Assembly: GCF_000423165.1 (NCBI RefSeq)
Contig: NZ_KE383983.1
Location: 1 to 64,000 of the forward strand
Length of the DNA: 64,000 nt
From: Pseudidiomarina sediminum DSM 21906
GTDB taxonomy: Bacteria > Pseudomonadota > Gammaproteobacteria > Enterobacterales > Alteromonadaceae
Reading direction: 5' to 3'
Part shown: piece after piece, positions 8,616 to 59,005 of the stretch
How positions within the stretch are numbered: the first letter of the stretch is position 1
How the letters are laid out: each line of letters starts with the position of its first letter
Translations under genes and position numbers: made by a program
The notes under the pieces: generated by a model
Database searches by the model: none
Told to the model about the DNA's origin: nothing
The model's input: the letters and a program-made list of their open reading frames with translations, nothing else

Positions 8616-10026
8616 ACAAGAAGCTCGTTTCTGTCACATGAACAACATCAGGGTCATTCACGTTCTGTACGACAAAGTTCACATCTTGTACGCGCTCAGT
8701 AACATCATCTGGATGTACAGATAAGGTCAATGGCACTGTCGCGATACCACCACCTTCAATCGTGATGGTGGTTTTACCGCTTAACTCGCTCCGTGCGAAG
8801 CCTTCCGAGGTAATGGTATAGGTTTCGGACAGCTGTGACTTGTTCAACACTTTTAAGGTGTAAACGTTTTGAATCCACCCATCCATATTGATGTTATACA
8901 GTTGGTTCCGGTCACGCAGTACATCTACGGCGAGCGGTTGACGGGTGGCAACGTCCCAAATAAACAGTGCGGTCATCACAATCATCACGACAAAATAACC
9001 CACCGCTTTAAAGCGTGCTTTACGGGTACGCCCGCCTTGCAAGTTGCGTTCAGTAGTAAAACGAATCAGACCACGAGCGTAGCCCATTTTGTCCATGACT
9101 TCGTTACACGCATCGATACACGCACCACAGTTAATGCACTCATATTGCAAGCCGTTACGAATATCGATGCCGGTTGGACACACCTGCACACACATGTTGC
9201 AGTCAATACAGTCACCGAGACCTTTCTCTTTTGGATCCACTTTCTTCGAGCGCGGTCCACGTGGTTCACCGCGGGCAGGAACGTATGAAACCGTCACGGT
9301 ATCCTGATCAAACATGGCCGACTGGAAACGCGCATAGGGACACATGTGCGTACACATGATTTCACGCATCCATCCGGCATTCCCGTAGGTACAAAAGGTA
9401 AATAATAGGACGAAGAACACCGCCCAGAAACTCGCCCCAAAGGTGAAGAAATTAACAAAGAGGTCGCTAATGTCAGTGAAATAGCCAACAAAGGTGAGGG
9501 CGGTTAACAGTGAGACGATCAACCAAGACACATGTTTGCCGGTTTTACGCCACACTTTATCGAAGTCCCACGGCCGCTTATCAAGTGCGATACGTTTGTT
9601 GCGGGCACCTTCAAACTTCTTCTCAAACCACATGAAAATAAAGGTCCATGTCGTCTGTGGACACATAAAGCCACACCAGACGCGACCGTATAAGGTTGTC
9701 ACAAAGAAAAGAGCAAAGGCGGCAACAATCGCTAGCCATGCCAAGATGGTTAAATCTTGTGGCCACAGCGTCATCCCAAAAATACGGAAACGTTGGTTGG
9801 CGATATCAAGCAGGACGGCTTGGTCACCGTTCCATTGCAACCAAGGAATAGCTGCGAATGCGAATAACAAGATGAAGCCAAAAATGCGGCGAAAGTACTC
9901 AAGGGTACCTTTCACGTCGCGCACATAAATGCGACTTCGTGGTGAATAGTCGTTATTACCTTTTTTCGGATCGGGACGCTGGATTTTTACCTTGTCCGCG
10001 GACATCACTTCAATCTTCTGCTCCAT
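8608..10026 (-). CDS. ccoG: Cytochrome c oxidase accessory protein CcoG (FixG/RdxA)
   Basis: A 472-aa polytopic membrane protein for assembly of the CuB centre of cbb3 oxidase; the family reduces copper for insertion. It has several transmembrane segments, a CxxxCP pair (CGFMCPQTTW, CTHMCPYARF), two 4Fe-4S ferredoxin motifs (CIDCNMCVQVCP and CINCGACIDAC), and a C-terminal Ig-like FixG domain. The ATG at 10026 was preferred over a TTG further upstream; GAGGGG sits about 12 bases before it, which is rather far. No cbb3 structural genes are in the window, so they lie elsewhere. Confidence 0.93.
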   Translation of the reverse strand: MEQKIEVMSADKVKIQRPDPKKGNNDYSPRSRIYVRDVKGTLEYFRRIFGFILLFAFAAIPWLQWNGDQAVLLDIANQRFRIFGMTLWPQDLTILAWLAIVAAFALFFVTTLYGRVWCGFMCPQTTWTFIFMWFEKKFEGARNKRIALDKRPWDFDKVWRKTGKHVSWLIVSLLTALTFVGYFTDISDLFVNFFTFGASFWAVFFVLLFTFCTYGNAGWMREIMCTHMCPYARFQSAMFDQDTVTVSYVPARGEPRGPRSKKVDPKEKGLGDCIDCNMCVQVCPTGIDIRNGLQYECINCGACIDACNEVMDKMGYARGLIRFTTERNLQGGRTRKARFKAVGYFVVMIVMTALFIWDVATRQPLAVDVLRDRNQLYNINMDGWIQNVYTLKVLNKSQLSETYTITSEGFARSELSGKTTITIEGGGIATVPLTLSVHPDDVTERVQDVNFVVQNVNDPDVVHVTETSFLYE

Positions 10027-10069
10027 AACCGTACGCCACCCCTCAGCTATCTCCACATGATTTACGGGG

Positions 10070-10099
10070 ATTATACGCCTATTTTTTGACAAATATCAG
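10070..10099 (-). promoter_or_regulatory. Candidate ccoG promoter with FNR-like box
   Basis: TTGACAAATATCAG (10086-10099) matches the FNR consensus TTGAT-N4-ATCAA at 8 of 10 half-site positions. A TATAAT (10070-10075, minus strand) lies just downstream. The box is centred near -29 relative to the start implied by that -10, which is unusual for activation, so either another start site is used or the control is negative. Confidence 0.35.
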
Positions 10100-10126
10100 T
10101 GCGCTAGATCAAACAATTTGTGCACA

Positions 10127-11365
10127 TTAGTTGCCAATATCCTTCATTGTCGCTAGCACTGCGTGCAACAACACATTGGCTCCCATTTCAACATCATGCC
10201 AATGAGACCATTCGTCCGGGGCATGACTCACGCCATTCACCGAAGGAATGAAAATAAGCCCAGCCTCGGTAAGTTCACTTAAGAACTGCGTGTCATGCCC
10301 TGCACCACTTGGCATCCGAGTATAACGGTAACCGAGTTGTTGCACTTGCTCTTCAATCAATTGCGTTAAGGGCTCCGAACATGGCGAGGGAGCTAACCAA
10401 CTGGTTTGCTCATATTCGAACATTAAGCGATGTTTGCGGGCGATGGCCGACAGCGCCTTGCGACAGGCGCTCGCAACTTCTTGCATTACGCCTTCATCCA
10501 TATCACGGCCAACGATAGTAAAGACTGCCTCACCGGGGACGGTATGTGGATAACCTGGCTTAAGTTCCACTTTACCCACAGTGATACGGGTCTTATCGGT
10601 GCCATTCTCAGCAATAATGCGTTCTATTTCGTGCGCAAAATCAGCCAGCCCCATAAACGCATCACTGCGCATGTCCATAGGTGCGGTGCCCGCATGATCA
10701 GCTTTACCTTTCAAATGTACAATCCATTTAAACACCCCAGAGATTCCTTCAACCACGCCAATTTGCAAGTTCTCTTGGAACAACACCGGGCCTTGTTCAA
10801 TATGCAGTTCAAGGTACGCCTTTAACTGCTCAGGTTGCCAAGCCGCCTCAAGTGCAGCCATAACATCAAGCTCTTGTGCTGCCATGGCGTCTTTTAAATA
10901 AAGGTTATCGGCGTCATGCGCGGACATTAACCATTCCGGGTTGAGCTTGCCGGCGATCGCTTGCGCACCCAACATGCCGCCAAAGCGGCCTTCTTCTTCA
11001 GCCGTGGCAACGGCCCACAGAGGTGTTGCCAAATCGACGTTATGTTCATCTAGGGTTTGCATCACTTCCAACGCTGCCATCACCCCCAAGGCACCATCAA
11101 ACATCCCCCCAGCAGGCACTGAGTCGATATGCGAGCCCATTAAGACCACATCTTTATCGCGCTTGCCGCGGCCGAAAAACACATTCCCAGCGCCATCCAT
11201 AAAGGTCTCAAAGCCTGCCGCTTGCGCTTTATCTTGCAGCCAGCCACGCGCCTGCATATCAGCGTCACTGTAGCCCGGTCGATAGACACCACCGTCGGCC
11301 TCGTTATAACCAATTTTGGAGAGTTCAATCAGGTTGGATTTCAGACGTTCGCAGTTAACTTGCAT
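10127..11365 (-). CDS. M20-family Zn-dependent amidohydrolase (AllC/N-carbamoyl-amino acid hydrolase type)
   Basis: A 412-aa cytosolic binuclear-zinc hydrolase of the allantoate amidohydrolase/carbamoylase branch of peptidase family M20. Metal ligands and signatures are visible: GSHIDSVPAGGMFDG, EEEGRFG, HIEQGPVL and SGAGHD. A bacterial-exopeptidase dimerisation domain occupies the middle. Substrates of relatives are N-carbamoyl-L-amino acids, allantoate or ureidoglycine. No purine or hydantoin genes are nearby, so the substrate stays open. AAAGGAG precedes the ATG. It is a single gene, preceded upstream by the heptamer repeat. Confidence 0.85.
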   Translation of the reverse strand: MQVNCERLKSNLIELSKIGYNEADGGVYRPGYSDADMQARGWLQDKAQAAGFETFMDGAGNVFFGRGKRDKDVVLMGSHIDSVPAGGMFDGALGVMAALEVMQTLDEHNVDLATPLWAVATAEEEGRFGGMLGAQAIAGKLNPEWLMSAHDADNLYLKDAMAAQELDVMAALEAAWQPEQLKAYLELHIEQGPVLFQENLQIGVVEGISGVFKWIVHLKGKADHAGTAPMDMRSDAFMGLADFAHEIERIIAENGTDKTRITVGKVELKPGYPHTVPGEAVFTIVGRDMDEGVMQEVASACRKALSAIARKHRLMFEYEQTSWLAPSPCSEPLTQLIEEQVQQLGYRYTRMPSGAGHDTQFLSELTEAGLIFIPSVNGVSHAPDEWSHWHDVEMGANVLLHAVLATMKDIGN

Positions 11366-11426
11366 GGGACTCCTTTGTTTAAAAAGAGGGTTTCACAAGC
11401 GTAGCTACTGTCGGGGGAATCATCAA

Positions 11427-11482
11427 ATTCGTTATTCGTTATTCGTTATTCGTTATTCGTTATTCGTTATTCGTTATTCGTT
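11427..11482 (+). repeat. Eight tandem copies of ATTCGTT
   Basis: Eight perfect 7-bp units (56 bp) lie about 60 bp upstream of the M20 gene start, in its presumed promoter region. Simple-sequence tracts of this kind can change copy number by slippage. Confidence 0.97.
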
Positions 11483-11533
11483 AAGACAGCATTACCTCAT
11501 CAAAAACCAATACAAGTAAAGAACATATTTTAT

Positions 11534-11577
11534 TTTTTGGTTTTTGGTTTTTGGTTTTTCGAATAACGATTAACGAA
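11534..11577 (+). repeat. TTTTTGG triplicate followed by an inverted copy of the heptamer
   Basis: Three TTTTTGG units and a final TTTTT are followed by CGAATAACGATTAACGAA (11560-11577). That last stretch is the reverse complement of heptamer-like sequence, so it could pair with the ATTCGTT array some 80 bp away. The rest of the 350-bp gap between the M20 gene and ahpD holds only this material and the ahpD terminator. Confidence 0.85.
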
Positions 11578-11597
11578 GAGCGCAGCGTTCGAATCAC

Positions 11598-11625
11598 AAA
11601 AAAAAAGCCCGGCGCGAAGCCGGGC
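11598..11625 (-). terminator. Rho-independent terminator of the ahpC-ahpD unit
   Basis: On the minus strand GCCCGGC-TTCGC-GCCGGGC (7-bp GC stem) is followed by nine T. It lies about 90 bp past the ahpD stop. Confidence 0.92.
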
Positions 11626-11718
11626 AAACAAGGGTTACAACAACCAGATCTCAGGGAAGTTGGTGCGTAATCTAACGCACACTCATGACAAACATATGAC
11701 AACTTTCGAAGCGTTTTG

Positions 11719-12246
11719 TTACGCGAGTCGACGGGCTGTCACCGCAGCGTTGAGTACCGCTGCCATTTTGATCGAGTTTTGAATCACTTGGGCTGAAATA
11801 TCATGTTTCAACAAGACGCCAACGTGTGAATCAATACACATACCACAACCGTTTAGTGCAGAAACGGCAAGGGAGTACAACTCGAAATCTGCCTTCTCAA
11901 CACCTGGGTTTGCCATACCATTCATGCGCAAACCAGCAGGCATTTTCGCAAACTGTTTATCGCTACTTAAATGCAAGAAACGATAGTAAATATTGTTCAT
12001 CGCCATCAAAGTGGCGGCAAGTTTGGCGGCACCAAACACGTTGGCTTCAACCTTGTCTTCCGCTTCAGCTTCGACAGCGCTAATCAAGGCATCGTCTGCC
12101 AACGCATAAGCTAACGAAAGGGCGGTACCGTAAAACTGAACTGGGCTCATACCAGAGGTCTCAACATTACCGAAAAGGTTCGACAAGTTAAGTTTGGTGT
12201 CTTTGCCGTGGTCGCCCAAGCCTTGTTTGTAATCTGCAATGCTCAT
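11719..12246 (-). CDS. ahpD: Alkyl hydroperoxidase AhpD family protein
   Basis: A 175-aa, all-helical carboxymuconolactone decarboxylase-fold protein. Glu122, Cys134, Cys137 and His141 form the AhpD catalytic pattern E-x11-CxxC-xxx-H (CGMCIDSH). The mycobacterial enzyme has a His between the cysteines that is Met here. In known pairs AhpD reduces the peroxiredoxin AhpC. It follows ahpC in the same direction, with two hairpins in the gap, and has a good ribosome site (GGAGG). Confidence 0.9.
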   Translation of the reverse strand: MSIADYKQGLGDHGKDTKLNLSNLFGNVETSGMSPVQFYGTALSLAYALADDALISAVEAEAEDKVEANVFGAAKLAATLMAMNNIYYRFLHLSSDKQFAKMPAGLRMNGMANPGVEKADFELYSLAVSALNGCGMCIDSHVGVLLKHDISAQVIQNSIKMAAVLNAAVTARRLA

Positions 12247-12261
12247 TGAAATTCCTCCGTT

Positions 12262-12287
12262 AAAAAAAGTGCCGCCGAAGCGGCACT
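12262..12287 (-). terminator. Intrinsic terminator between ahpC and ahpD
   Basis: On the minus strand AGTGCCGC-TTCG-GCGGCACT (8-bp stem, TTCG tetraloop) is followed by seven T, immediately before the ahpD ribosome-binding site. It should end most ahpC transcripts, so ahpD would depend on readthrough. Confidence 0.88.
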
Positions 12288-12291
12288 CAAA

Positions 12292-12324
12292 GGGACATCA
12301 TCAAATGTGGGGAAATGATGTCCC
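12292..12324 (-). terminator. Second hairpin directly after the ahpC stop
   Basis: GGGACATCAT (12292-12301) pairs exactly with ATGATGTCCC (12315-12324), a 10-bp stem that abuts the ahpC stop codon. Only a short T run follows. It may stabilise the ahpC transcript end or act with the next hairpin. Confidence 0.7.
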
Positions 12325-12870
12325 TTACAGGGTGTCTCCACCAACCGCGCGGTTACATGGGCACAACTCATCGGTTTGCAAACCATCAAGAATGCGCAGA
12401 ATCTCAGTTGGATTACGGCCAACGTTCAAGTTGTTCACTGACACGTGTTGAATCACGTTGTGTGGGTCAACAATAAAGGTTGCACGTAATGCGACGTTTT
12501 CAGCTTTGTCACGTACGCCCAAACCGTCAATCAATGAACCATTGTCAGCAAACGAGTACTGCTGCAAACTTTTCAGATCTGGGTGTTCGCGGCGCCATGC
12601 CAGTTTCACAAATTCGTTGTCAGTGCTACCGCCTAAAACGATGGCATCACGGTCCGCAAATTCTTCGTTCAACTTGGCAAACTCAACAATTTCTGTTGGG
12701 CAAACAAAGGTGAAGTCTTTCGGATAAAAGAAAATCACTTTCCACTTACCAGCAAAGCTGTCGTTGGTGATGGTTTCAAACGCACTTTCGCCGTTCTCTT
12801 CTGGCATGTTGAAACCTGGTTTCGCAGCTACAACTGAAAATTCTGGTAATTTATCGCCAACTGTTAACAT
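12325..12870 (-). CDS. ahpC: Peroxiredoxin AhpC (AhpD-linked type)
   Basis: A 181-aa 2-Cys peroxiredoxin that reduces H2O2 and alkyl hydroperoxides. The peroxidatic Cys57 lies in FTFVCPTE. The C-terminal ELCPCNR carries Cys170 and Cys172, the CxC end of the AhpD-dependent (actinobacterial-like) branch, distinct from enterobacterial AhpC that uses AhpF. AAGGAG precedes the ATG. It is divergent from oxyR, which is expected to activate it. Confidence 0.93.
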   Translation of the reverse strand: MLTVGDKLPEFSVVAAKPGFNMPEENGESAFETITNDSFAGKWKVIFFYPKDFTFVCPTEIVEFAKLNEEFADRDAIVLGGSTDNEFVKLAWRREHPDLKSLQQYSFADNGSLIDGLGVRDKAENVALRATFIVDPHNVIQHVSVNNLNVGRNPTEILRILDGLQTDELCPCNRAVGGDTL

Positions 12871-12988
12871 GATTAATGCTCCTTAAAGGGTTACTTAAAA
12901 TTCGTTTGCGATGGCGGTGAAGGGCCTGCCATCTCGCTACGGAATGAATGATAGGGGAGCTGACTCATTTGTTAAAACGAATAAAACG

Positions 12989-13018
12989 GATTATGATAAT
13001 CGGAAAATATGATTAATC
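12989..13018. promoter_or_regulatory. Candidate OxyR operator in the ahpC-oxyR gap
   Basis: GATTATGATAATC (12989-13001) is a perfect 13-bp palindrome and GATTAATC (13011-13018) is a second short palindrome one to two helical turns away. They sit in the shared region 17-46 bp upstream of oxyR. They do not match the E. coli ATAG-N7-CTAT pattern well, so OxyR binding is an inference from position. Confidence 0.38.
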
Positions 13019-13034
13019 TTTTTCTGAGGGCATT

Positions 13035-13949
13035 ATGAGCAAATTACCTAGCCTAAAAAATCTGACGTACTTGCTGGCATTGCACCAACACCAAAACTTT
13101 AACCGTGCGGCGCAGGCCTGTCATGTCAGCCAATCCACCTTGAGCAGCGGCATCCAAAATTTAGAAGAACTGCTGGGGTGTCAGCTCATTGAACGTGATC
13201 ATAAGTCATTTCTTTTTACCGGACTTGGGGAAGAAATTGTCACGCAAGCACGCCGTATTCTCACCGCAAGTGAGGAACTCCTGCACTTCGCCCAAAGCCA
13301 AGGCAAAGTAATGGAAGGCCCACTACGGTTGGGCTGCATTCCAACCATTGCGCCTTTTCTGCTCGGCGACCTGACCAAACATATTCATCAACATCATCCT
13401 TTGCTACAACTACAGATTCGCGAAGACACCACGCAGACCCTCTTACAGTTGCTGCGCGACGGTGAGCTTGATGTTGTGGTACTTGCTTTACCGATGGACT
13501 TACAAGGCAATCAAAGCTATCTGCTAGGCCGCGACCCATTCAAATTGGTGATGCACAAGTCACTTGCCGAGACACTCAGCGAGCCAGTGGTGTACAACCA
13601 GTTACCTGATGCGTCGATCTTCTTATTAGAAAAAGAGCATTGCCTCAGCGGCCACGCCGTTGCCGCCTGTGAGCTGGCGGATTCCACCAAGATCAACCCA
13701 TTTACCGCAACCAGTTTGCATAGTCTCGTACAAATGGCCGATGCAGGTCTGGGGGCCACCTTTATTCCGCAAATGGCGATCGACCGCGGTATTCTCAACG
13801 GTACCGACTTAGTTGCCCTACAACCGACCGGACAGCAGGCTTCTCGAGACATAGGCTTGGTTTATCGTGGCACCACCAACCGCCGTCAGACCTTCCGCAA
13901 GCTAGCTGAAATTATTGCGGACTTGTTACCTGAACGTACCTTGCCGTAG
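13035..13949 (+). CDS. oxyR: Hydrogen peroxide-sensing LysR regulator OxyR
   Basis: A 304-aa LysR-type regulator. The N-terminal winged helix is FNRAAQACHVSQSTLSSGIQ. The redox pair is Cys203 and Cys212 in KEHCLSGHAVAAC, with the same nine-residue spacing as Cys199/Cys208 of E. coli OxyR; disulfide formation there switches on peroxide defence. GCIPTIAPFLL and GLGATFIP also fit OxyR. Its divergence from ahpC supports the role and suggests autoregulation from the shared gap. Confidence 0.94.
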   Translation: MSKLPSLKNLTYLLALHQHQNFNRAAQACHVSQSTLSSGIQNLEELLGCQLIERDHKSFLFTGLGEEIVTQARRILTASEELLHFAQSQGKVMEGPLRLGCIPTIAPFLLGDLTKHIHQHHPLLQLQIREDTTQTLLQLLRDGELDVVVLALPMDLQGNQSYLLGRDPFKLVMHKSLAETLSEPVVYNQLPDASIFLLEKEHCLSGHAVAACELADSTKINPFTATSLHSLVQMADAGLGATFIPQMAIDRGILNGTDLVALQPTGQQASRDIGLVYRGTTNRRQTFRKLAEIIADLLPERTLP

Positions 13950-13990
13950 GATAGAAATTATTCAATTTATTACCGACTGAGGATCTTCAC

Positions 13991-15145
13991 ATGTCACGTA
14001 CCACTCAGACCGCTTTCGTTACGTTGACCAGCGCACTAAGTTTATGTGTGGCGCTCTGGCAACCGGCCTATGGCCAAACGGCTGCTACCGAGCGCCATCA
14101 GGTGAACGCTACCACCGTTGCCGAAGGGCTGAATTTTCCTTGGGGGCTGGCGTTTTTGCCAAATGGTGACGCGCTGATTACCGAAAAATCAGGAAGTCTG
14201 CGCCGCGTTAGTCCAAATGGTGCCATCAGCGCCCCTATCAAAGGCGTGCCTGACGTGGTCTATAAGAGCCAAGGCGGGCTACTTGATGTCGCCATTGATC
14301 CTAACTTCGCAGACACACCATGGGTTTACCTAAGCTACGCTGAAGCCGATCCAGCAGGAGGCGACGGCAACAGTACCGCTGTCGCCCGCGGCAAACTCAA
14401 CGGCAATGCTTTAACCGACGTCACCGTCATTTTCCGCGGTGCACCTAAATACAAAAGTGGTGCCCACTTCGGTTCGCGTTTAGTGTTTTCGCCACAGGGA
14501 CACCTCTTTATTACCTTAGGCGACCGCTATTCGGCGATGGATGATGCGCAAACCCTCGACAACCACCATGGTAAGGTCGTCCGCATTTGGCCTGATGGCA
14601 GCATTCCAAAAGATAACCCTTTTGTGCGGGATGATGGCGCCTTAGATGCGATTTGGTCCTATGGTCATCGCAACGTCCAAGGGGCGGCGATTCACCCAGA
14701 AACCGGTGCCTTGTGGACCGTGGAACATGGCCCCAAAGGCGGTGATGAAATCAATATTCCAGAGGCAGGGAAAAACTACGGCTGGCCGATTGCCACCTAT
14801 GGTGTGGACTATGATGGCAGTGTTATTAGCGATCAAACCCACGCTGAAGGTACTGTGCAACCGCACTACTACTGGGTTCCCTCAATTGCCACATCGAATA
14901 TGATTTTCTACACTGGCGATATGTTCCCGGCTTGGCAAGGCGATGCGCTGATTGCGGCCTTAAAAGGTGCCAAAGTAGCGCGACTTGATCTTGATGGTGA
15001 GCGCGTTATGCATGAAGAGAGTTTGTTTGCTGAGCTTATTCAGCAACGGATCCGTGACATCGCCCAAGGTCCTGATGGGGCGATTTACCTGATTACCGAT
15101 GATCGCAACGGTCGCTTTATCAGGATCACAAACGCTGCTGAGTAA
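13991..15145 (+). CDS. PQQ-dependent aldose sugar dehydrogenase (YliI/Asd type)
   Basis: A 384-aa periplasmic six-bladed beta-propeller that oxidises aldoses with pyrroloquinoline quinone. A signal peptide (cleavage near AYGQ) is followed by the family blocks GLNFPWGLAFLP, LLDVAIDPNF, YKSGAHFGSRLVF, SYGHRNVQG, EHGPKGGDEIN and GKNYGWP. Length equals E. coli YliI within a few residues. The gene ends 5 bp before the receptor gene downstream, so the two are one unit. I see no pqqABCDE in the window, so apo-enzyme may depend on imported cofactor. A second member lies near 58 kb. Confidence 0.93.
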   Translation: MSRTTQTAFVTLTSALSLCVALWQPAYGQTAATERHQVNATTVAEGLNFPWGLAFLPNGDALITEKSGSLRRVSPNGAISAPIKGVPDVVYKSQGGLLDVAIDPNFADTPWVYLSYAEADPAGGDGNSTAVARGKLNGNALTDVTVIFRGAPKYKSGAHFGSRLVFSPQGHLFITLGDRYSAMDDAQTLDNHHGKVVRIWPDGSIPKDNPFVRDDGALDAIWSYGHRNVQGAAIHPETGALWTVEHGPKGGDEINIPEAGKNYGWPIATYGVDYDGSVISDQTHAEGTVQPHYYWVPSIATSNMIFYTGDMFPAWQGDALIAALKGAKVARLDLDGERVMHEESLFAELIQQRIRDIAQGPDGAIYLITDDRNGRFIRITNAAE

Positions 15146-15150
15146 CTATT

Positions 15151-17184
15151 ATGCCGTCTCCATCGTTGTTGACGCTCGCGCTCAGCGCGAGCGTCAGTAT
15201 GGCCAGTACCGCCACCCCCACATCTGCTGAACGCGCCGAGGTTAACGTTGAGCGCCTGCAAATCAATGCCTCTCAACCTTTGATAAGCCGTTCGTTGCCT
15301 GCAGCAATCACTCACCGCAGCACCGATGCGCAACTGCCTGGGCCGCGTATTGATGCGGATGAGCTGTTGCAAGGCATCGCTGGGGTACAAAGTGATTCAC
15401 GCGCCAACTATGCACAAGACACGCGCATCAGTATGCGTGGATTTGGCGCGCGTTCAGCTTTTGGCGTACGGGGAGTGTTATTACAGCTCGACGGGGTACC
15501 GCTAAGCATGCCGGACGGCCAAGCACAAACGTCAAGCATCTTGCTCGACGAACCTGATAACGTGCAAATCATTCGTGGCCCGCTCGCCGTATTGTATGGT
15601 AACGCCGCAGGAGGGGTGATCCACTGGCAAAGCGCTGCTCCGCAAGCAACAACGAGTACCCTAAACGTTGCACAAGGCGCAAACGCCCTCATCCGTGCAC
15701 AGGCACAACACGACTGGCACGAGAACGAGCAGGCCTTGCGCATCATGGCCTCTCATTTTCGCACCGACGGCCCACGCGCGCACAACCAAGCTCGCCGTAG
15801 TCATGTTGCGGGTCGCTGGTATCGTCAGCTCAGTCCAACCACGCAACTCATCTTACGCTATGACAACAGCAATGCACCGCTGCTCGAAGACCCAGGCGCT
15901 TTAACGCCCGATGACTGGCGTAACGATCCCAGCCAAACCATTGCTCGCGCCAGCACTTACAACACGCGCAAAGCCATTCAGCATGAGCAACTATCGACCA
16001 GTATCACTTATCAAGAAGACGCGCATGCGGCAGATATCACCTTATGGCGAGGCTGGCGCGCGATTGAACAATATTTGCCGTTTCAAGGTGACGACCTCAC
16101 CAGTAGCGGCGCCGTCATTGATTTAAAGCGCGACTTTATCGGCATTCACAGTGATTATCATTGGACCCCAAGTACACTACCTGACTGGCAGCTTAGTGCC
16201 GGATTTCAACTTGCGCAGCAAAACGACCGGCGCTTTGGTTTTGTGAATAACTTCGGCGAAAAAGGCGCGTTACGCCGCAATGAGGACAGCAACGTTGAAG
16301 CCCAGTCGGCGTACGTTCTCTCCAATTGGCAACTGGCACCACGTTGGCAATGGCTGTTGGGAACACGCTACCAACACACGCAATTTACCGTGAATGATAG
16401 CTACATTACCCCAGACAACCCTGACGATAGTGGTCGTACCGCCATGCAAGACTGGAGTTGGATGAGTGGCCTGCATTATCAACTAACGCCGAGCTGGTCG
16501 GTTTATCTCAGTCGCGGCGCCGGTTTTGAAACGCCAACATTAACCGAGATGGCGTATCGCAACAACGCTACCGGCCTGAATACTGAACTTAAGCCAGCCC
16601 GCAATTTACAATGGGAGATCGGGCAAAAGTGGCAACGTCACAACCTCCAAGCTCAATTGGTCGGTTACCACATTACCACTTACGATGAATTGGTCGTCGA
16701 TCAAAGCATTGACGGCCGCACAACCTATAAAAATGCTGCTGAGACCGAGCGCCAAGGGCTTGAACTTGACCTGCAGCTTTCCTTCACACCTCACTGGACA
16801 ACACAATTCAATGCACATGCGCTCGATGCGACCTACAGCGATGGTCGTCGTTTACCAGGTGTGGCTGAACGACAAGCTTATTGGCAATTCGAGTGGCAAC
16901 CCAGCAGCGCGCACCAAGTCCGGCTCATTGGGAGCTATCGTGGCACGATTTCAGCCAATGAAGACATGACCGTCATTGCGCCAAGTGCAACGCTTTGGCA
17001 TCTCGCGTACCAAGGCGACTGGCGCTGGCAAGACCTAGAACTAGGACCATGGCTCAAATTACATAACCTCACCGACCGAGATTACGTGGGGGCTGTGGTG
17101 GTCAATCAAGGAAGCGGACGAGCATTTGAACCGGGCGTCGGCCGTGAACTACAAGCGGGCATAACGATTCGTTATGTTTGGTAA
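15151..17184 (+). CDS. pqqU: TonB-dependent receptor, PqqU/YncD-like PQQ importer
   Basis: A 677-aa outer-membrane receptor: signal peptide, plug (SMRGFGARSAFGVRG, LDGVPLSMPDGQAQTS, IRGPLAVLYGNAAGG) and a 22-strand barrel ending in the aromatic YVW. From memory these blocks agree closely with E. coli YncD, recently shown to import PQQ and renamed PqqU, including NYAQD, GGRTTYKNA-then-RQGLEL in the barrel, and DYVGAVVVN and FEPGVGREL near the end. The five-base gap after a PQQ-dependent dehydrogenase supports the substrate. I could not run an alignment, and other YncD-like receptors may carry different ligands. Confidence 0.82.
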   Translation: MPSPSLLTLALSASVSMASTATPTSAERAEVNVERLQINASQPLISRSLPAAITHRSTDAQLPGPRIDADELLQGIAGVQSDSRANYAQDTRISMRGFGARSAFGVRGVLLQLDGVPLSMPDGQAQTSSILLDEPDNVQIIRGPLAVLYGNAAGGVIHWQSAAPQATTSTLNVAQGANALIRAQAQHDWHENEQALRIMASHFRTDGPRAHNQARRSHVAGRWYRQLSPTTQLILRYDNSNAPLLEDPGALTPDDWRNDPSQTIARASTYNTRKAIQHEQLSTSITYQEDAHAADITLWRGWRAIEQYLPFQGDDLTSSGAVIDLKRDFIGIHSDYHWTPSTLPDWQLSAGFQLAQQNDRRFGFVNNFGEKGALRRNEDSNVEAQSAYVLSNWQLAPRWQWLLGTRYQHTQFTVNDSYITPDNPDDSGRTAMQDWSWMSGLHYQLTPSWSVYLSRGAGFETPTLTEMAYRNNATGLNTELKPARNLQWEIGQKWQRHNLQAQLVGYHITTYDELVVDQSIDGRTTYKNAAETERQGLELDLQLSFTPHWTTQFNAHALDATYSDGRRLPGVAERQAYWQFEWQPSSAHQVRLIGSYRGTISANEDMTVIAPSATLWHLAYQGDWRWQDLELGPWLKLHNLTDRDYVGAVVVNQGSGRAFEPGVGRELQAGITIRYVW

Positions 17185-17278
17185 CATTTCCACGCTTACC
17201 TGCGACGTTAAACGTGTTAGCTTATTTGCAGCAACATGAATCATACACTTCTGGGTTCAATGGAAGGAAAATCAAACT

Positions 17279-17776
17279 ATGACCATTCAGTGGGTCGCTC
17301 CAGAGCAGAGCTACCGCTCCTATTTACAGCTTCACTCTCTGTTTTCGATGCTGATCTTGGGCGCTATTGGCATCGCGCTTTACCTGTTTGAGGTCACACC
17401 TATTAATCTTGTTCCTTGGTGGGTGCTGGTGCTGATTTGGCTGCTTTTAACCCTATTCTTCAGCGTGTTTTTCGCCTCTCGTCGCTTTCTGTTTACTGCA
17501 TATGCCCGTACTGAAGAGGCCATGCACCTCAAACATGGAGCCTTGTTTCGCAGTATTCGCGCGGTACCTCTCAATCGCATTCAACATGTCGAATACAAGC
17601 AAGCTTTTCTCGAACGACTCTTTGGCATTGCTCGCCTGGCAATCTATACCGCCGGTAGTGGTGGCGCTGACTTAACCCTACCAGGCTTGGCACCTGATGT
17701 TGCCATGCGCTTTAAAGAGGAACTGCTAACCACCATCGCCAACGAGCCGACGGAGGACGTTGACGGCAATGAGTGA
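17279..17776 (+). CDS. PH-domain membrane protein (YdbS-like)
   Basis: A 165-aa protein with two transmembrane helices (SMLILGAIGIALYLFEV and VPWWVLVLIWLLLTLFFSV) and a bacterial PH domain (bPH_2) with the family block HGALFRSIRAVPLNRIQHVE. It overlaps its partner downstream by 8 bp. YdbS/YdbT pairs in Bacillus are linked to resistance to antimicrobial compounds made by other bacilli; the biochemical role is unknown. Confidence 0.8.
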   Translation: MTIQWVAPEQSYRSYLQLHSLFSMLILGAIGIALYLFEVTPINLVPWWVLVLIWLLLTLFFSVFFASRRFLFTAYARTEEAMHLKHGALFRSIRAVPLNRIQHVEYKQAFLERLFGIARLAIYTAGSGGADLTLPGLAPDVAMRFKEELLTTIANEPTEDVDGNE

Positions 17777-19262
17777 ACTCGCTTGGCAACGCACACCTTT
17801 GCTCACCATGGCGTTCTTTTTCTTTCGCCAAATCAAGCAACTGGTGACCAACTTATCGAATCTGCTACCGGCGTTTTTAGGGATCTTTGTTGCGGTAAAA
17901 AACAACATCTGGCTGCTTTATATTTTTATTGGCGGCTACGTCGTTTTCATTATTATCAATGCGATTTTACAGCAACGCTTTTATTGGTATGCCATCGCCG
18001 ATGATGCCGTGCATGTAAAGACGGGCGTGCTCAACCGGCAACACTTAACGCTCAAATACGAACGTATCCAACAAGCAGAAATTCATCAGACTTGGTATTT
18101 CCGCCCCTTTGGCTTAACGCTACTCAATGTTGATAGTGCCGGCTCTGCGGGCAAAGAAGTGATGATTCCAGGATTATCGCTCGAGCGTGCGCATTACTTA
18201 CGCCAGCAAATGCTCGAGACACAAACACAAGCGCCCCAAACTTCTGGCGCCCCAACCACGCCTGCTGAGGAGCCTGGGTTCCGGCAACACTTCTCCACCG
18301 CAGAAATTATTCGGGCCGGCATTATTGATAACAAACTCTTCGTATTGCTGGCCTTGCTGTTGTATCCCGCAGGACAATTTGATGTGTTCGATAATTACAT
18401 CGAGCCTTGGTTGGATCAGCACCTCTCATGGTTTTCTCAGGACACCGCTTGGTTGCTGGTGGTGCTGATTTTCGTCGTACCTATACTGGTGTTATTTATC
18501 CTCGCAATCGTCGTTAGCTTAGTGCTGTTTCACGATCTCACCGTCACCATTGAGGGCGATCGCTTTCAGGCCCGCTCCGGCGCGTTTACCATTCGCACCC
18601 TTAGTTTTCGTTATCCGAAATTACAAGCGGTCCGTATTCGCCGCAATTTGCGCGCGCGCCTGCTCAATCGCAGCGTACTCAAAGTCAGTCAACTCCAACC
18701 TCGACAAAGCGCCGGACAACCTTCAGCACAACAATTCATGCTGCCGGTTGTCGCACCTGCATTACTCGCAACCTTACGCGAATACCTACGGCTACCTAAC
18801 GCCACCGACGTGCATTGGCAGCGTTTGTCGACCTTAGCATTACTCAAACCCAGCTTGTGGGTAGCCGTGCTGACGCCCGGGGCGCTGGCGTTTGCCTACT
18901 TCGCGCTAGAGCTGGAACAGTACAGTTTCATTTTTGCTGGTGGCCTGTGGCTTGTGCTACAAGTGTACTTTACCTTGCGCTGGTACAACTATAGGTACAC
19001 CTTTGCCAGTACCTCGCGCGAGCAGTGGTTTGCGGTGCGACGCGGGGTAATTGGCCGTAGTGAAAATTGGTACCCACGCCATAAAATACAACAGATTGAT
19101 GTGGTGCAAGGGCCTTGGTTACGTATGTTGGGCTTTCACCATTTAATCCTGCATACCGCGGCGGGGAGTGAGACGATTAAATATCTTCCCAGTGAGAAGG
19201 CGCTCGAGCTACAGCGTGATTGGACGCACGCTATTGCCAGCAGTCATCGCCGCTGGATGTAA
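17769..19262 (+). CDS. PH-domain membrane protein (YdbT-like)
   Basis: A 497-aa multi-pass protein with repeated bPH_2 domains, seen as three copies of the same theme: KTGVLNRQHLTLKYERIQQAE, FTIRTLSFRYPKLQAVRI and RRGVIGRSENWYPRHKIQQID. Transmembrane pairs separate them. The ATG at 17769 lies inside the end of the previous gene, which is the normal arrangement for ydbS-ydbT. It probably forms a membrane complex with that partner. Confidence 0.8.
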   Translation: MSELAWQRTPLLTMAFFFFRQIKQLVTNLSNLLPAFLGIFVAVKNNIWLLYIFIGGYVVFIIINAILQQRFYWYAIADDAVHVKTGVLNRQHLTLKYERIQQAEIHQTWYFRPFGLTLLNVDSAGSAGKEVMIPGLSLERAHYLRQQMLETQTQAPQTSGAPTTPAEEPGFRQHFSTAEIIRAGIIDNKLFVLLALLLYPAGQFDVFDNYIEPWLDQHLSWFSQDTAWLLVVLIFVVPILVLFILAIVVSLVLFHDLTVTIEGDRFQARSGAFTIRTLSFRYPKLQAVRIRRNLRARLLNRSVLKVSQLQPRQSAGQPSAQQFMLPVVAPALLATLREYLRLPNATDVHWQRLSTLALLKPSLWVAVLTPGALAFAYFALELEQYSFIFAGGLWLVLQVYFTLRWYNYRYTFASTSREQWFAVRRGVIGRSENWYPRHKIQQIDVVQGPWLRMLGFHHLILHTAAGSETIKYLPSEKALELQRDWTHAIASSHRRWM

Positions 19263-19278
19263 CATCAGGAGCAGAAAC

Positions 19279-20283
19279 ATGTATACCGATCATGACGTAA
19301 ACGCTGCTGTCAGTGCAAATATCATCAGCCAAGCACAAGCTGATGCGCTACGCCAGTTTGTCGAAAGCGAACGCGCCACGCAATTGCAAGACGAAGAGTA
19401 CGTGCGCTTTGTCAGTGGCTTTAACGATATTTTCGTGGTGATTGCCGCAGGTGTCGCATTGGCCGCACTCTGGTCGCTGGGCAACCTCGTTGGCGCTTGG
19501 CTTGGGGGGGCCTTAGTGGCAACCACCAGTTGGGGCCTCGCCGAATACTTTACCCGTAAACGTCAAATGGCTTTACCGTCTATCTTCTTATTGCTGACAT
19601 GCTTGGGCGGGGTGTTTTTGGGCACTGTCGTTACCCTCACCACGCTGCAACCCGAGTCAGCCTTTGGACCTATTGCAGCCTTTGCATTAAGCGCGATTGT
19701 GGCTATCGTGCATTGGTTCCGCTTCCGTGTTCCGATCACCTTAGCCGCGATACTTGCAACGAGTATTGGCGTGGCACTTTCCTTATTGGTTGCCGTCTTT
19801 GCATTTTCAGAGGTGGTGTTTAAACTTGGGCTCTTTAGTGCAGGGGTGATCACTTTCATCTTAGCCCTACGCTGGGATCGTAGTGATGTTGCACGCCAAA
19901 CACGGCGGGCTGACGTAGCATTTTGGCTGCATTTGTTGGCGGCACCCTTGCTGGTTCACCCTATTTTTGTCACGCTTGCAGGGGCAACCTTCGACGCCGG
20001 CTATTTGCAGGCAGGATTAACCATCCTTGGCTATGCCGTACTGGCCATGATTTCGCTGATCATTGATCGGCGCGCCTTAATGATCTCAGCATTATCTTAT
20101 GTGATTTATGTGTTCAGCAAGGTATTGGCCAGCGTTGGCCTGATCCATGAAGGCACCGCGGTGATCGGCTTAGTGATTGGGGCTGGCTTGCTGCTGCTGT
20201 CGGTATTCTGGCATCCATTACGTCGTAAACTGGTACAACGCTTACCGCAACGGTTCGCGGCGCAGGTACCTGCGGCACACTAA
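19279..20283 (+). CDS. DUF2157-like polytopic membrane protein
   Basis: A 334-aa protein of unknown function. A short cytoplasmic N-terminus (ANIISQAQADALRQF, like the start of DUF2157 proteins) is followed by about ten hydrophobic helices with few charged loops, and the chain ends in a basic tail. CAGGAG precedes the ATG at 19279; an upstream in-frame extension lies within ydbT and was not used. It follows ydbT by 16 bp and may belong to the same envelope operon. Confidence 0.72.
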   Translation: MYTDHDVNAAVSANIISQAQADALRQFVESERATQLQDEEYVRFVSGFNDIFVVIAAGVALAALWSLGNLVGAWLGGALVATTSWGLAEYFTRKRQMALPSIFLLLTCLGGVFLGTVVTLTTLQPESAFGPIAAFALSAIVAIVHWFRFRVPITLAAILATSIGVALSLLVAVFAFSEVVFKLGLFSAGVITFILALRWDRSDVARQTRRADVAFWLHLLAAPLLVHPIFVTLAGATFDAGYLQAGLTILGYAVLAMISLIIDRRALMISALSYVIYVFSKVLASVGLIHEGTAVIGLVIGAGLLLLSVFWHPLRRKLVQRLPQRFAAQVPAAH

Positions 20284-20298
20284 AAAGTGAAAGGAGAG

Positions 20299-20325
20299 GG
20301 CGGTAGCGCCTGAAACGCTGCCGCC
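20299..20325. terminator. Hairpin between convergent genes
   Basis: GGCGGTAGCG pairs with CGCTGCCGCC (10 bp, one G-U) around a 7-base loop, between the membrane protein and yjdM. Neither side has a clear T tract, so termination is only probable. Confidence 0.5.
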
Positions 20326-20335
20326 TTGGTCCATT

Positions 20336-20671
20336 TTAAGCCTTCTTGACGAACTCGGTTTTGAGCTTCATCGGGCCGATGCCATCAATTTTACAATCAA
20401 TGTCATGATCCCCTTCGTCGGTAAGGCGAATATTCTTCACTTTGGTGCCGACCTTTACAACCAATGACGAGCCTTTGACCTTCAAATCTTTAATGACTGT
20501 CACGGTATCGCCATCTTGCAACTCGTTGCCGTTGGCGTCGCGATACACTTTGCCTACTTCAACAGGCTCATTCGCTGACCACTCGTGGCCGCACTCTGGG
20601 CACACAAGCATCGCGCCATCTTCGTAGGCGTAAGGTGATTCACATTTTGGACATGCAGGTAATTGGCTCAT
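20336..20671 (-). CDS. yjdM: Zinc-ribbon protein YjdM (formerly PhnA)
   Basis: A 111-aa cytosolic protein with an N-terminal zinc ribbon (CPKC at residues 7-10 and CPEC further on) and a C-terminal SH3-like domain ([19 protein letters not shown]). The family was once called PhnA but is not a phosphonoacetate hydrolase; its role is unknown. The start overlaps the previous stop by 4 bp (ATGA). Confidence 0.9.
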
Positions 20672-21144
20672 GATGGCTTCCTAGAAGGTTTGGCTGAAAC
20701 ATAGATGGTTATCTCGCCTTCAATGACCAAGGTACCGTCACTTCGATACCCGCGAACACGTACTGGTAGGTCGCCTGGATGCCATGCGTCGGCAGACGTT
20801 TCAGCAGTAATACGAATGTCACTGTCAGCTTTGGCGGTGTAGTTTACCGACATTCCCTTAGGAATCCAGCGCAAATGCTTCGGAATGCTCGCTTCGGCTA
20901 ACGCTCCCATAGCCATTTCAAGCCCGTTACAGAGCGCAATGGCATGCACAGTCCCAATATGATTCTCGACCGCTTTGCGCTTTTTGAAGCGTAATTCACA
21001 AAAGTTTGGCTTTAACTCCGTAATAAGCGGTCTGATACTGCGAAAATAAGGCGCTTTGCGGGCGAAAAACCACGAAAACAGCTGGCGTCCAAAAGGGTAC
21101 GCCAAGCATTTCTGGTACAACCGTAACACGTAATTGTCGGTCAT
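20668..21144 (-). CDS. DUF4442 hotdog-fold thioesterase-like protein
   Basis: A 158-aa protein of the DUF4442/PaaI-like hotdog superfamily. The helix [21 protein letters not shown] and the following strand [15 protein letters not shown] match the family. Members are thought to hydrolyse acyl-thioesters, but this branch is uncharacterised. It is translationally coupled to yjdM and lies 10 bp after pldA, so the three may be one transcript. Confidence 0.8.
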
Positions 21145-21154
21145 GACCCACCTA

Positions 21155-22099
21155 TTAAATATTCAGCAGTAAGAAACCAAAACCAATGCGATTTTGACGG
21201 TGATTGTAATCTAATAAGGTTTCACCGTAGCCCGAGAAGAACTGGATATAAAAACGTAGTCCGTCAGGCTTATCGCTGTTCACTGGATGGGTAAAGTCGA
21301 CCTGCCACGAGCCACGGTCCCACGAGAATTCACGGGTAATGCGGGTGACACTGTAGGTACTTAAGTCATTGCGCCAAGACAATTTATTCTCAAAGTTACC
21401 GCGATAGCGCACGAGATCAGGGTTATCGTCGTCGTCACCGGTTTCATTTACGCGTTGCTTCCAGGTGGTTTCCCACAAGAGATCACCCCATTCAACAGCA
21501 CCGCCAAAGTGAAAGTAGTTCCAGCTGCGTGAGCTTGGCTTGGTTTGACCATTGGATTCATGCGCAAAACCTACTTTGGCAAAGCGCACCCGTGCGTCGC
21601 CAGGAATAAAGTCGAAATCCTCTGACCAAGGCACGATATAAAACACATCAGGGTTATAATTGGTACTACGGAAAGGCGAGGAGTCATCATGGTTCCAGGC
21701 CTGCCATAGCGATTTTTGCGTATAAGAAACCCAAAGATCGGCATTAGGCAGTAAGAAGTCCTCAAACAACTTCGTTCGCAACGAAATTTGTAGCTTCACT
21801 TCGTTCGGCTTGTAACTATCGAGTGGATCAGATGGCCCTCGGGTCGGTGACTCAGGCTGCACGTTAATGTCCGAGCTGTGATGTACCGGCAACAAAAAGT
21901 TGGGCTGATAGGTGCGCAGTTGAAAAATGCCGCGCTTTTGGTCCTCACCGAGCTCCCAGAAACGGCCGACGATGTCGTCACTGACAAACTCTTCGGGGGT
22001 GACCCCTTCCTCTTTATCTTTAGCATCCGAGACATCTTGTGCAAACACCGGAGTGACGGACCAGATGGCTAAACTTAGTACCGCGATCGCTCGAAACAT
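21155..22099 (-). CDS. pldA: Outer-membrane phospholipase A (OMPLA)
   Basis: A 314-aa outer-membrane phospholipase. A signal peptide (cleavage after VFA) is followed by an acidic linker and a 12-strand barrel. The catalytic triad is visible as His180 and Ser182 in GFAHESNG and Asn194 in SRSWN, with the same spacing as His142/Ser144/Asn156 of E. coli PldA. The enzyme is Ca2+-dependent, acts as a dimer, and removes phospholipid from the outer leaflet. Confidence 0.94.
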   Translation of the reverse strand: MFRAIAVLSLAIWSVTPVFAQDVSDAKDKEEGVTPEEFVSDDIVGRFWELGEDQKRGIFQLRTYQPNFLLPVHHSSDINVQPESPTRGPSDPLDSYKPNEVKLQISLRTKLFEDFLLPNADLWVSYTQKSLWQAWNHDDSSPFRSTNYNPDVFYIVPWSEDFDFIPGDARVRFAKVGFAHESNGQTKPSSRSWNYFHFGGAVEWGDLLWETTWKQRVNETGDDDDNPDLVRYRGNFENKLSWRNDLSTYSVTRITREFSWDRGSWQVDFTHPVNSDKPDGLRFYIQFFSGYGETLLDYNHRQNRIGFGFLLLNI

Positions 22100-22109
22100 G
22101 ATTCATCCC

Positions 22110-23144: not shown

Positions 23145-23153
23145 TCCAACCCC

Positions 23154-23612: not shown

Positions 23613-23713
23613 AAGTACCTCAAGATCGACAATAGTGTAACGCCCTCTACTTTCGCACAGTTCAACAAGAACGCAAAACTCAAGTAAACGAACTCGCAAA
23701 ATCGTAAAGATTA

Positions 23714-23724
23714 GCTACGCTTAA
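23714..23724 (+). promoter_or_regulatory. Sigma-S-like extended -10 element
   Basis: GCTACGCTTAA fits the RpoS-preferred -10 consensus KCTAYRCTTAA at every position. It lies 36 bp upstream of the start of the BON lipoprotein, a kind of gene (OsmY-like) often under RpoS. Confidence 0.6.
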
Positions 23725-23759
23725 TGTCGGAAGTTAATTCAAAAACAGAGGGTTATTAC

Positions 23760-57422: not shown

Positions 57423-57881
57423 ATGTTCCGAGTGGTCATTGCATTTTTGTGTGCGGTCCTATCGGGTGCTTTGGTTGGCAGCATTGTGCAAACACAGTTC
57501 AATTTAGCTGCCCTCGCTGAGCTTTCTGTTCCCATCACGATAGATGTTCGAATTTCGACGATAATCCACGATATTATTAATTTTTCACCAATTTTAGCAG
57601 CAATGTTAGGGGTTGTTTTACTTGTTGCTTTACCTGTTGCCGGGTTTGTTGCGCACTTTATTCAGGGCATTGAACGGCTGTGGTTTACTTTTGCTGGTTT
57701 TATCGGCTTATTACTTTGTTTTGCCATTGTGAACGAGTTGGCCCCAATGCCTACCTTTATTGCGGCCACGCGTAGTTGGTCGGGGTGGTTATTAATGGCG
57801 GCAACGGGAGGGCTTGCGGGTTGGCTCTTTCATCGTGTGTGGCGACCGACGGTACGTGATCTAAAGGACCCTGTAGTGTGA
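57423..57881 (+). CDS. Four-helix membrane protein, unknown
   Basis: A 152-aa protein with four hydrophobic helices, including VVIAFLCAVLSGALVGSIV and AAMLGVVLLVALPVAGFVAHF. AAGGAGG precedes the ATG. Its stop overlaps the next GTG start by 4 bp. No named family recognised. Confidence 0.75.
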   Translation: MFRVVIAFLCAVLSGALVGSIVQTQFNLAALAELSVPITIDVRISTIIHDIINFSPILAAMLGVVLLVALPVAGFVAHFIQGIERLWFTFAGFIGLLLCFAIVNELAPMPTFIAATRSWSGWLLMAATGGLAGWLFHRVWRPTVRDLKDPVV

Positions 57882-59005
57882 AACGACTGAAACAATCGAT
57901 GTTAATACTGAGTGTGTTGCTGTTTGGGCAGCTCACCTTTCCTGTACATGCCGCTGAGGTCGCAGTAATAAGCGATGAGATTGCTGTTGGGTTCGATTAT
58001 CCTTGGGCACTGGTGCAGTTACCCGAACGTAAAGCCGGTTGGTTGGTTACTGAACGTACGGGACAGCTTATCCATGTCGCGGATGACGGCACCAAGGTTC
58101 AGGTCCCCCTGCAATTGCCTGGATTGTATGTTGCAGGGCAAAGTGGATTATTTGACGTGATCTTAGCGCCGGACTTTGCTACGTCGCGTTGGCTCTATTT
58201 AAGTTATGCGTGCGGCACGCCCAATGCCAACACAACGTGTTTGGCGCGGACGCGCTTGTCAAAGACCACGCCTTATCGCACTCAAGCCACCGAAAAGTTG
58301 TTTACTGCCCGGCCGTTGCGTAAAGGTGCGGCCCATTATGGGGGGCGCATGGCATGGTTACCGGATCAAACCTTGTTGTTGACCCTCGGCGATGGCTTCG
58401 ATTATCGCGAGCAAGCGCAGAACCTTGAAAATCATTTTGGCAAAGTTGTGCGTTTGACCATGACCGGTGAAGCCCCCGCGGACAATCCATTTCCGGATAA
58501 AACCGATGGTCGGATTTTTAGTTACGGGCATCGCAATAGCCAAGGCATTGTTTATGACCCCACACGCAAGGTAATTTGGCAACATGAGCACGGTCCGCGC
58601 GGCGGTGATGAATTAAATCGTCTCCAAGCAGGCCGTAATTACGGTTGGCCGATAGTGAGCTTGGGGATTGATTACACTGGGGCAATGGTAACGCCCTATG
58701 AAGCCTTACCTGGGGTTGTTGATCCTGAATATCACTGGACCCCGTCGCTTGCGCCTGCAGATATGGCGCTCTACCAAGGTACAATGTTTCCACAATGGCA
58801 AGGTGGACTGTTGATCACTCACCTTGCTGGTAAGCGTTTGCAGGTGTTAATGCCAGAGCATGACACCTGGCAGGTAGCGGCCGAATATCGCACCTCAAAC
58901 GAGGCGCGTTTGCGTGCTGTGGCTGTGGCTGACGATGGTGCCATTTGGCTGTTAACAGACAGTGATAATGGGCGCTTGTTACGCCTCTCTGCGCCTAAAG
59001 ATTAA
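57878..59005 (+). CDS. PQQ-dependent sugar dehydrogenase, second copy
   Basis: A 375-aa exported six-blade propeller (signal peptide cleaved near VHAAE). It shares the family blocks with the copy at 14 kb: FDYPWALVQLP, GAAHYGGRMAW, FSYGHRNSQGI, EHGPRGGDELN and GRNYGWP. A Cys pair (YACGTPNANTTC) is unique to it. A GTG start is inferred from the 4-bp overlap. It may use scavenged PQQ; some family members use other substrates or have lost the cofactor. Confidence 0.88.
   Translation: MKRLKQSMLILSVLLFGQLTFPVHAAEVAVISDEIAVGFDYPWALVQLPERKAGWLVTERTGQLIHVADDGTKVQVPLQLPGLYVAGQSGLFDVILAPDFATSRWLYLSYACGTPNANTTCLARTRLSKTTPYRTQATEKLFTARPLRKGAAHYGGRMAWLPDQTLLLTLGDGFDYREQAQNLENHFGKVVRLTMTGEAPADNPFPDKTDGRIFSYGHRNSQGIVYDPTRKVIWQHEHGPRGGDELNRLQAGRNYGWPIVSLGIDYTGAMVTPYEALPGVVDPEYHWTPSLAPADMALYQGTMFPQWQGGLLITHLAGKRLQVLMPEHDTWQVAAEYRTSNEARLRAVAVADDGAIWLLTDSDNGRLLRLSAPKD

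Follow-up and report, generated by a model that had tools for sequence, protein, structure and literature searches.

Why is a gene for a TonB-dependent receptor encoded immediately behind a dehydrogenase gene in the salt-loving marine bacterium Pseudidiomarina sediminum DSM 21906, and what would such an arrangement be good for? The locus lies in a window of 64,000 nucleotides (positions 1–64,000 of contig NZ_KE383983.1, from a genome of 2.62 Mb that is 99.92% complete). It consists of asd, which encodes a predicted aldose dehydrogenase of the type that depends on pyrroloquinoline quinone (PQQ), and of pqqU, which encodes a putative outer-membrane importer of this cofactor. Very probably, the two genes form a cofactor-scavenging module, in which imported PQQ serves the co-encoded dehydrogenase. 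The pair and the receptor codons that matter most are the following:

13991..15145, plus strand: asd, predicted six-bladed PQQ-dependent aldose dehydrogenase of the YliI/Asd type, 384 amino acids (PF07995, match to 2g8s, blocks aligned with YliI)
15146..15150, plus strand: spacer of 5 bases between the TAA stop of asd and the ATG of pqqU
15151..17184, plus strand: pqqU, TonB-dependent outer-membrane receptor and predicted PQQ importer, 677 amino acids (sequence, profile, pocket and fold)
15460..15462, plus strand: codon of F104, aligned with Y99 of PqqU, the pi-stacking residue, for which F is allowed by the published signature (PMC12124388)
16057..16059, plus strand: codon of R303, aligned with R304 of PqqU, which contacts a PQQ carboxylate there (role from PMC12124388)
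16231..16233, plus strand: codon of R361, aligned with R365 of PqqU, which contacts a PQQ carboxylate there (role from PMC12124388)

The initial annotation had placed a PqqU-like receptor and a YliI-type PQQ-dependent dehydrogenase five bases apart at 13991–17184 and had described them as fused in one operon. Both genes are in place and both assignments hold, as detailed below; they are two adjacent genes on the same strand and not a gene fusion, and they are presumably co-transcribed. Of the three receptor motifs that had been named as shared with E. coli, NYAQD and YVGxVxVN are found exactly, and the third reads DGRTTYKNA here versus GGRTTYKNA in E. coli.

Import of PQQ by E. coli PqqU (YncD) was reportedly described by Hantke and Friz in 2022. 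The best sequence and fold matches of the window receptor are to this protein, whose structures are 6v81 and 9c4o and which is a high-affinity PQQ importer (PMC12124388). With the receptor as query, phmmer places 6v81 (YncD) and 9c4o (PqqU) first in the PDB, both with an E value of about 1e-101; a pesticin receptor (E 2e-11) is the only further chain to reach E 1e-8. The plug and barrel domains of a TonB-dependent receptor are present, and the best NCBIfam model is that of PqqU, NF041535 (447 bits, the next receptor model reaching 88 bits). An AlphaFold2 model of the receptor, built from 19 aligned sequences (mean predicted local distance difference test score 81.9, predicted template modelling score 0.81), resembles both 9c4o, which has PQQ bound, and 6v81 with a template modelling score of 0.89, versus 0.66–0.79 for the other receptors among the 50 fold matches listed (all query-normalised). 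A generic siderophore receptor was considered and ruled out, since tests of fold, family and pocket each point to PqqU.

The published PqqU signature consists of Y, F or W at position 99 together with R at 304 and R at 365 (PMC12124388). On alignment with E. coli PqqU, the receptor carries F104, R303 and R361 at these positions of the predicted PQQ pocket; none of four E. coli receptors for other ligands (BtuB, FhuA, FecA and FhuE) bears the signature. The comparison covered 11 of the 12 PQQ contacts counted in PMC12124388. Two further functional contacts, K274 and R536, are kept (as K274 and R523), as are Q84, Q121, Q308 and Y481, and two contacts are changed (Q310 to L and N477 to T). The residues reported to be important for PQQ-dependent growth of E. 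coli are K274, R304, R365, R536 and Y99, and the mutants of the two positions that differ here, Q310A and that of the asparagine (written N477 or N447E), grew like the wild type (PMC12124388).

A receptor of the PqqU fold clade might nevertheless import another small anionic compound, its proximity to a dehydrogenase gene being coincidental. TonB-dependent receptors vary widely in ligand, and this one is only 33% identical to E. coli PqqU, with F for Y99 and the two changed contacts. Furthermore, its 447 bits miss the curated cut-off of NF041535 (1200 bits) and, under NCBI's own rule, the protein would not be named PqqU; this cut-off is taken here as set for close relatives of the E. coli protein, and the filing of the receptor as a PqqU rests on signature and fold. 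Against another ligand stand the conservation of K274, R304, R365 and R536 and of Y99 as F, and against coincidence stands the PF07995 neighbour, which recurs in all 26 genomes of the genus and in separate lineages (see below). Such an explanation is improbable, and PQQ is likely to be the ligand of the receptor.

The product of asd matches the glucose/sorbosone dehydrogenase family PF07995 over its full length (positions 1–332 of 332; 468.7 bits, E 1.4e-140, cut-off 25), and its best PDB matches are E. coli 2g8s (E 2.6e-94) and 7cdy (E 6.4e-94), the latter presumably a Pseudomonas aeruginosa protein. It shares the six-bladed PF07995 type and the same conserved blocks with both, and aligns with YliI (2g8s) in HF.GSRL, GHRNVQG, EHGPKGGDE, NYGWP and RIRD, which we take to have active-site roles. 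Its N-terminal stretch, read by eye, resembles a Sec signal peptide. The full-length family match, the match to 2g8s and the shared blocks point to a YliI-type PQQ-dependent dehydrogenase, for which oxidation of aldoses is predicted; the E. coli relative YliI displays glucose dehydrogenase activity once reconstituted with PQQ (PMC13088180). Unlike the genes of YliI and 7cdy, asd lies five bases before that of an importer: in E. coli, pqqU sits between mcbR and yncE, and yliI is elsewhere.

Where would the cofactor come from? No pqqC was found in any of the 26 genomes of the genus, P. sediminum included (three of the 26 are less than 90% complete), by a search that works, as it is positive in three genomes of other genera; pqqE has no match in the P. 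sediminum genome, pqqA, pqqB, pqqD and pqqF not having been searched for. Since the sole PF13360 protein of this genome is BamB, two PF07995 proteins, the asd product and the following one, are the only PQQ-enzyme candidates found in it:

57878..59005, plus strand: another dehydrogenase of the PF07995 family, 43 kb from asd and pqqU and a possible second client of imported PQQ

A second PF07995 match is present in 24 of the 26 genus genomes. In the enzyme tree, the protein encoded at 57878–59005 sits on a long branch whose closest neighbour is an enzyme of genome G423. The idea that this copy is degenerate, suggested by a lysine replaced by alanine in its C-terminal block, was rejected, this position being variable among the enzymes compared. 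The P. sediminum receptor is thus like E. coli PqqU in its fold, its pocket signature and a scavenger setting without pqqC or pqqE; E. coli additionally has Gcd (PMC13088180), whereas no large quinoprotein was found in the genome of P. sediminum.

These negatives bear on the idea of PQQ synthesis in the organism itself, with PqqU merely recapturing what leaks out. Such a combination exists elsewhere, as biosynthesis genes are reported in 23% of PqqU carriers (PMC12124388) and pqqC exceeds the cut-off in 14 of the 43 carriers of the class sample described below; with pqqC missing from all 26 genus genomes and pqqE from a 99.92%-complete genome, it is barely credible here. Another genome of the same family, G031 (L160–L162), carries pqqC and two PF07995 genes, which are not close orthologues of asd (41% at best), and has no PqqU match; it is a possible maker beside an importer genus. 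Nine genomes that represent other genera of the family were without a PqqU match at E 1e-60.

The scavenging of PQQ for the co-encoded enzyme can be pictured as follows. By analogy with the E. coli model, PqqU would capture scarce PQQ (at nanomolar concentrations) outside the cell, and TonB would power its release into the periplasm. The putatively secreted Asd-type dehydrogenase would take up PQQ there, probably with calcium, and would oxidise aldoses to aldonolactones, the electrons presumably passing to the respiratory chain. As the cell would make no PQQ of its own, the enzyme would work only when neighbours leak the cofactor. A periplasmic oxidase of this kind may bring in electrons without any uptake of sugar.

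If the two genes belong together, their association should be durable, and within the genus it is. Every one of the 26 genus genomes (P. sediminum included) has a PF07995 gene immediately before PqqU, in the same orientation; because it is kept in all of them, the pairing is not due to chance. A set of 39 loci from named records comprises 23 of the Idiomarinaceae type (with Idiomarina aquatica and an unclassified metagenome-assembled genome, L038) and 16 others; those most like the window locus are from Pseudidiomarina. In all 23 Idiomarinaceae-type loci the nearest candidate start of pqqU is 1–19 bases past the stop of asd, and none of the 39 receptors fails the pocket signature.

Beyond the family, the association was surveyed in 370 gammaproteobacterial genomes, evenly drawn and at least 90% complete. 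PqqU, called by a match at 1e-80 with three candidates scored per genome, so that some may be missed, was found in at least 43 of them (P. sediminum included); the signature is present in 40 of the 43, G180, G185 and G291 departing from it at position 304. With a threshold of E 1e-40, 37 of the 43 PqqU genomes have a PF07995 match, versus 106 of the 327 others (Fisher p 1e-11, odds ratio 12.9); at 1e-80, the counts are 33 of 43 and 82 of 327 (p 6e-11). The test, uncorrected for kinship, treats genomes as independent although they are not.

An eight-bladed alcohol-dehydrogenase model matches a frame of more than 500 residues in 23 of the 43 PqqU genomes (19 of them over the family cut-off; the long but weaker matches of G204, G297, G299 and G373 are counted among the 23). 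The other 20 have no large eight-bladed quinoprotein among the matches listed (to E 1e-8), in a count that included no separate search with the model of the membrane glucose dehydrogenase. PF13360 alone is misleading in this respect: it matched 20 of 20 through a frame of BamB size (383–450 residues), BamB being confirmed in the P. sediminum genome only. Some of the 20 have weaker or repeated matches besides (an ambiguous 543-residue frame in G370, weaker matches in longer frames in G271, G292 and G328).

PF07995 at 1e-40 is present in 19 of these 20 genomes (18 at 1e-80), G369 being the one that lacks it, and in none of the 20 does pqqC exceed the cut-off (a match in G340 is below it). Since 18 of the 23 genomes with large quinoproteins carry PF07995 too (15 of 23 at 1e-80), a difference that is not significant (p 0.19; p 0.08 at 1e-80), PF07995 accompanies PqqU generally; what sets the 20 apart is that no other candidate client was found in them.

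Direct adjacency is rarer. An Asd-type neighbour, defined as PF07995 at 1e-80 directly beside PqqU, occurs in 6 of the 43 genomes, which are P. sediminum and 5 of the 42 outside its genus, in three layouts. The five are:

G218: enzyme first, 27 bases to PqqU
G340: receptor first, about 138 bases to the likely enzyme start
G165: receptor first, about 107 bases to the likely enzyme start
G290 and G354: enzyme and PqqU back to back

By a rough gene count, about 0.03 adjacent pairs would be expected in the 36 other genomes that carry both genes, versus the 5 seen. The paired genomes make up 6 of the 20 without a large quinoprotein versus none of the 23 others (p 0.006; with P. sediminum removed, 5 of 19 versus 0 of 23, p 0.014). 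Two weaker PF07995 neighbours of PqqU were kept out of this strict count. That of G093, one of the 20, is a partial match (6e-48) on a long branch; that of G149 (L132), one of the 23, belongs to PF07995 only distantly (43.5 bits for the part compared, with a cut-off of 25) and is encoded by a frame at about 7807–9261 on the minus strand, upstream of PqqU and on the same strand, and presumably sorbosone-dehydrogenase-like. G149 also carries pqqC and large quinoproteins. As the paired genomes become 7 of 20 versus 1 of 23 (p 0.017) once G093 and G149 are counted, pairing is strongly, though not exclusively, linked to the absence of large quinoproteins.

On the receptor tree, with G093 scored as paired and G149 as unpaired, the paired state requires at least five changes, four of them forced by well-supported branches. 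The paired enzymes do not form one clade either, their tree (G093 included) requiring seven changes, of which five are forced. As a control, a receptor-like match within about 3.5 kb was found at 1 of 40 PF07995 loci that were picked from the top-scoring ones and are not beside PqqU. When the neighbours of PqqU were clustered, PF07995 appeared in seven genomes and was equalled only by an ABC (ATP-binding cassette) ATPase family (also seven); this clustering lacks four loci whose receptor was lost in the picking of reading frames (G204, one of the two loci of G161, G348 and G266) and the enzyme of G354, all five of which were included in a tblastn check.

The PF07995 enzymes of G354 (L151) and G275 (L205), two genomes of one genus, closely resemble each other; in G354 PqqU is encoded divergently from the enzyme, and in G275 no PqqU was found, which suggests that the importer was gained or lost beside an enzyme already in place. 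When the survey of pairing was extended to the order to which G290 belongs, PqqU was found in one of nine genomes, G290 itself. G048, in which PF07995 is one reading frame away from PqqU, is outside the class sample and was not counted. A different enzyme stands close to PqqU in G373 (L133), where an 878-residue frame of the eight-bladed alcohol-dehydrogenase type is convergent with it, with about 0.2 kb between the matches.

The other neighbours of the pair raise the question of whether PQQ might be imported for something else. One of them is the regulator gene that precedes asd:

13035..13949, plus strand: OxyR-like LysR regulator, 41 bases before asd here and preceding the pair in all 23 Idiomarinaceae loci

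Together with divergent AhpC-like and AhpD-like genes it occupies 11719–13949, and such ahpC/ahpD-like genes were also seen past the oxyR-like gene at L045, L163 and L164, the three further loci that were checked. The order oxyR-like, asd, pqqU is invariant in the 23 loci. The OxyR-like gene is possibly co-transcribed with the pair in the window. In a scan of 12600–17500, no promoter-like site falls between it and asd (8 such sites in the whole scan versus 4.5, standard deviation 2.3, in shuffled sequences; 5 terminator-like sites versus 5.5). This gene is a conceivable regulator of the pair.

One could see in the OxyR-like, peroxiredoxin and AhpD-like genes a meaningful context, in which PQQ would act as an antioxidant or serve another client. 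An antioxidant role has indeed been proposed by Munder et al. for carriers without an enzyme (PMC12124388), and BamB was enriched with PQQ probes in Pseudomonas putida (PMC13088180). Nevertheless, outside Idiomarinaceae the recurring neighbour is PF07995 and not oxyR, and oxyR lies anywhere between tens of bases and about 2 kb away from asd, whereas asd and pqqU keep their 1–19 bases. This alternative appears unlikely. Downstream of the pair, 94 bases after pqqU and on the same strand, 17279–19262 holds two bacterial pleckstrin homology (PH) domain genes, which we take to be YdbS/YdbT-like. No Rfam match was found in window positions 8000–24000.

Besides the missed NCBIfam cut-off and the two changed contacts, several data of the survey weigh against the scavenging of PQQ for a co-encoded dehydrogenase. 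PqqU has no adjacent Asd-type PF07995 in 37 of the 43 genomes (5 of the 43 loci had less than 1.5 kb on one side), and no asd was found near PqqU in the 16 named loci from outside Idiomarinaceae (9 of them from Cellvibrionaceae; flanks are short in some). PF07995 is also common where PqqU was not found, in 106 of 327 genomes, and the association counts related genomes as independent. Finally, some Idiomarinaceae rely mainly on amino acid catabolism and not on sugar fermentation (PMC6193092), a lifestyle in which it is not obvious what a sugar oxidase would be good for.

With these points taken into account, the import of PQQ to arm a periplasmic sugar oxidase, as put forward in the initial annotation, is supported by the pocket, the fold, the negative results for pqqC and pqqE and the recurring pair. 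Its view of an organism without PQQ synthesis agrees with the lack of any pqqC or pqqE match, and the gene pair does recur in genomes without pqqC. Its proposal that the pair marks this receptor clade in marine gammaproteobacteria was too wide: the pair is fixed in the Idiomarinaceae loci compared and was not found in the available flanks of the 16 others, although these receptors bear the signature as well.

Part of this picture is already published, namely PqqU, its scavenger role and the existence of carriers without biosynthesis genes (PMC12124388). In a survey of 1861 PqqU genomes, Munder et al. (2025) predicted a dehydrogenase that depends on PQQ in 67% of the carriers; for groups in which none was found, among them Nitrosomonadaceae, Ectothiorhodospirales and Arenimonas, they proposed a role other than in enzymes or an enzyme missed by the search (PMC12124388). 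According to the methods in the main text, that survey used PF01011, PF13360, PF13570 and one other profile, and not PF07995 (PMC12124388). The main text does not mention YliI, and its passages on genomic context do not mention a pairing of PqqU with a dehydrogenase; the supplement may show one. In four Burkholderiales genomes PqqU is beside PQQ biosynthesis genes (PMC12124388), which resembles the window in that PqqU accompanies PQQ-related genes; unlike these loci, the window has PqqU beside a PQQ-type enzyme in a genome without pqqC or pqqE. No paper naming both Pseudidiomarina and pyrroloquinoline quinone was found in the literature searched. What is modestly new, and testable, is the comparative association and pairing of PqqU with PF07995.

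A broader proposal is that, in scavengers without large eight-bladed quinoproteins, imported PQQ mainly serves six-bladed Asd-type PF07995 enzymes, which would explain much of the enzyme-less third of the published carriers, and that adjacency was repeatedly selected and is a marker of this lifestyle. The chances of this proposal are about even, a little lower than first judged because of G149 and of the 18 of 23 genomes with large quinoproteins that also carry PF07995.

The pairing hints at the enzymes for which many scavengers import PQQ. P. sediminum provides a clean case: its genome has an importer and two PF07995 enzymes, one of which is encoded beside it, and neither pqqC, pqqE nor a large quinoprotein was found. 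The survey suggests that such cases are common among Gammaproteobacteria, so that the question can be tested directly. The locus also leaves a puzzle for the biology of the family: although some of its members are reported to live on amino acids (PMC6193092), it keeps a sugar oxidase and pays for the import of its cofactor, perhaps in order to draw electrons from sugars that it does not eat.

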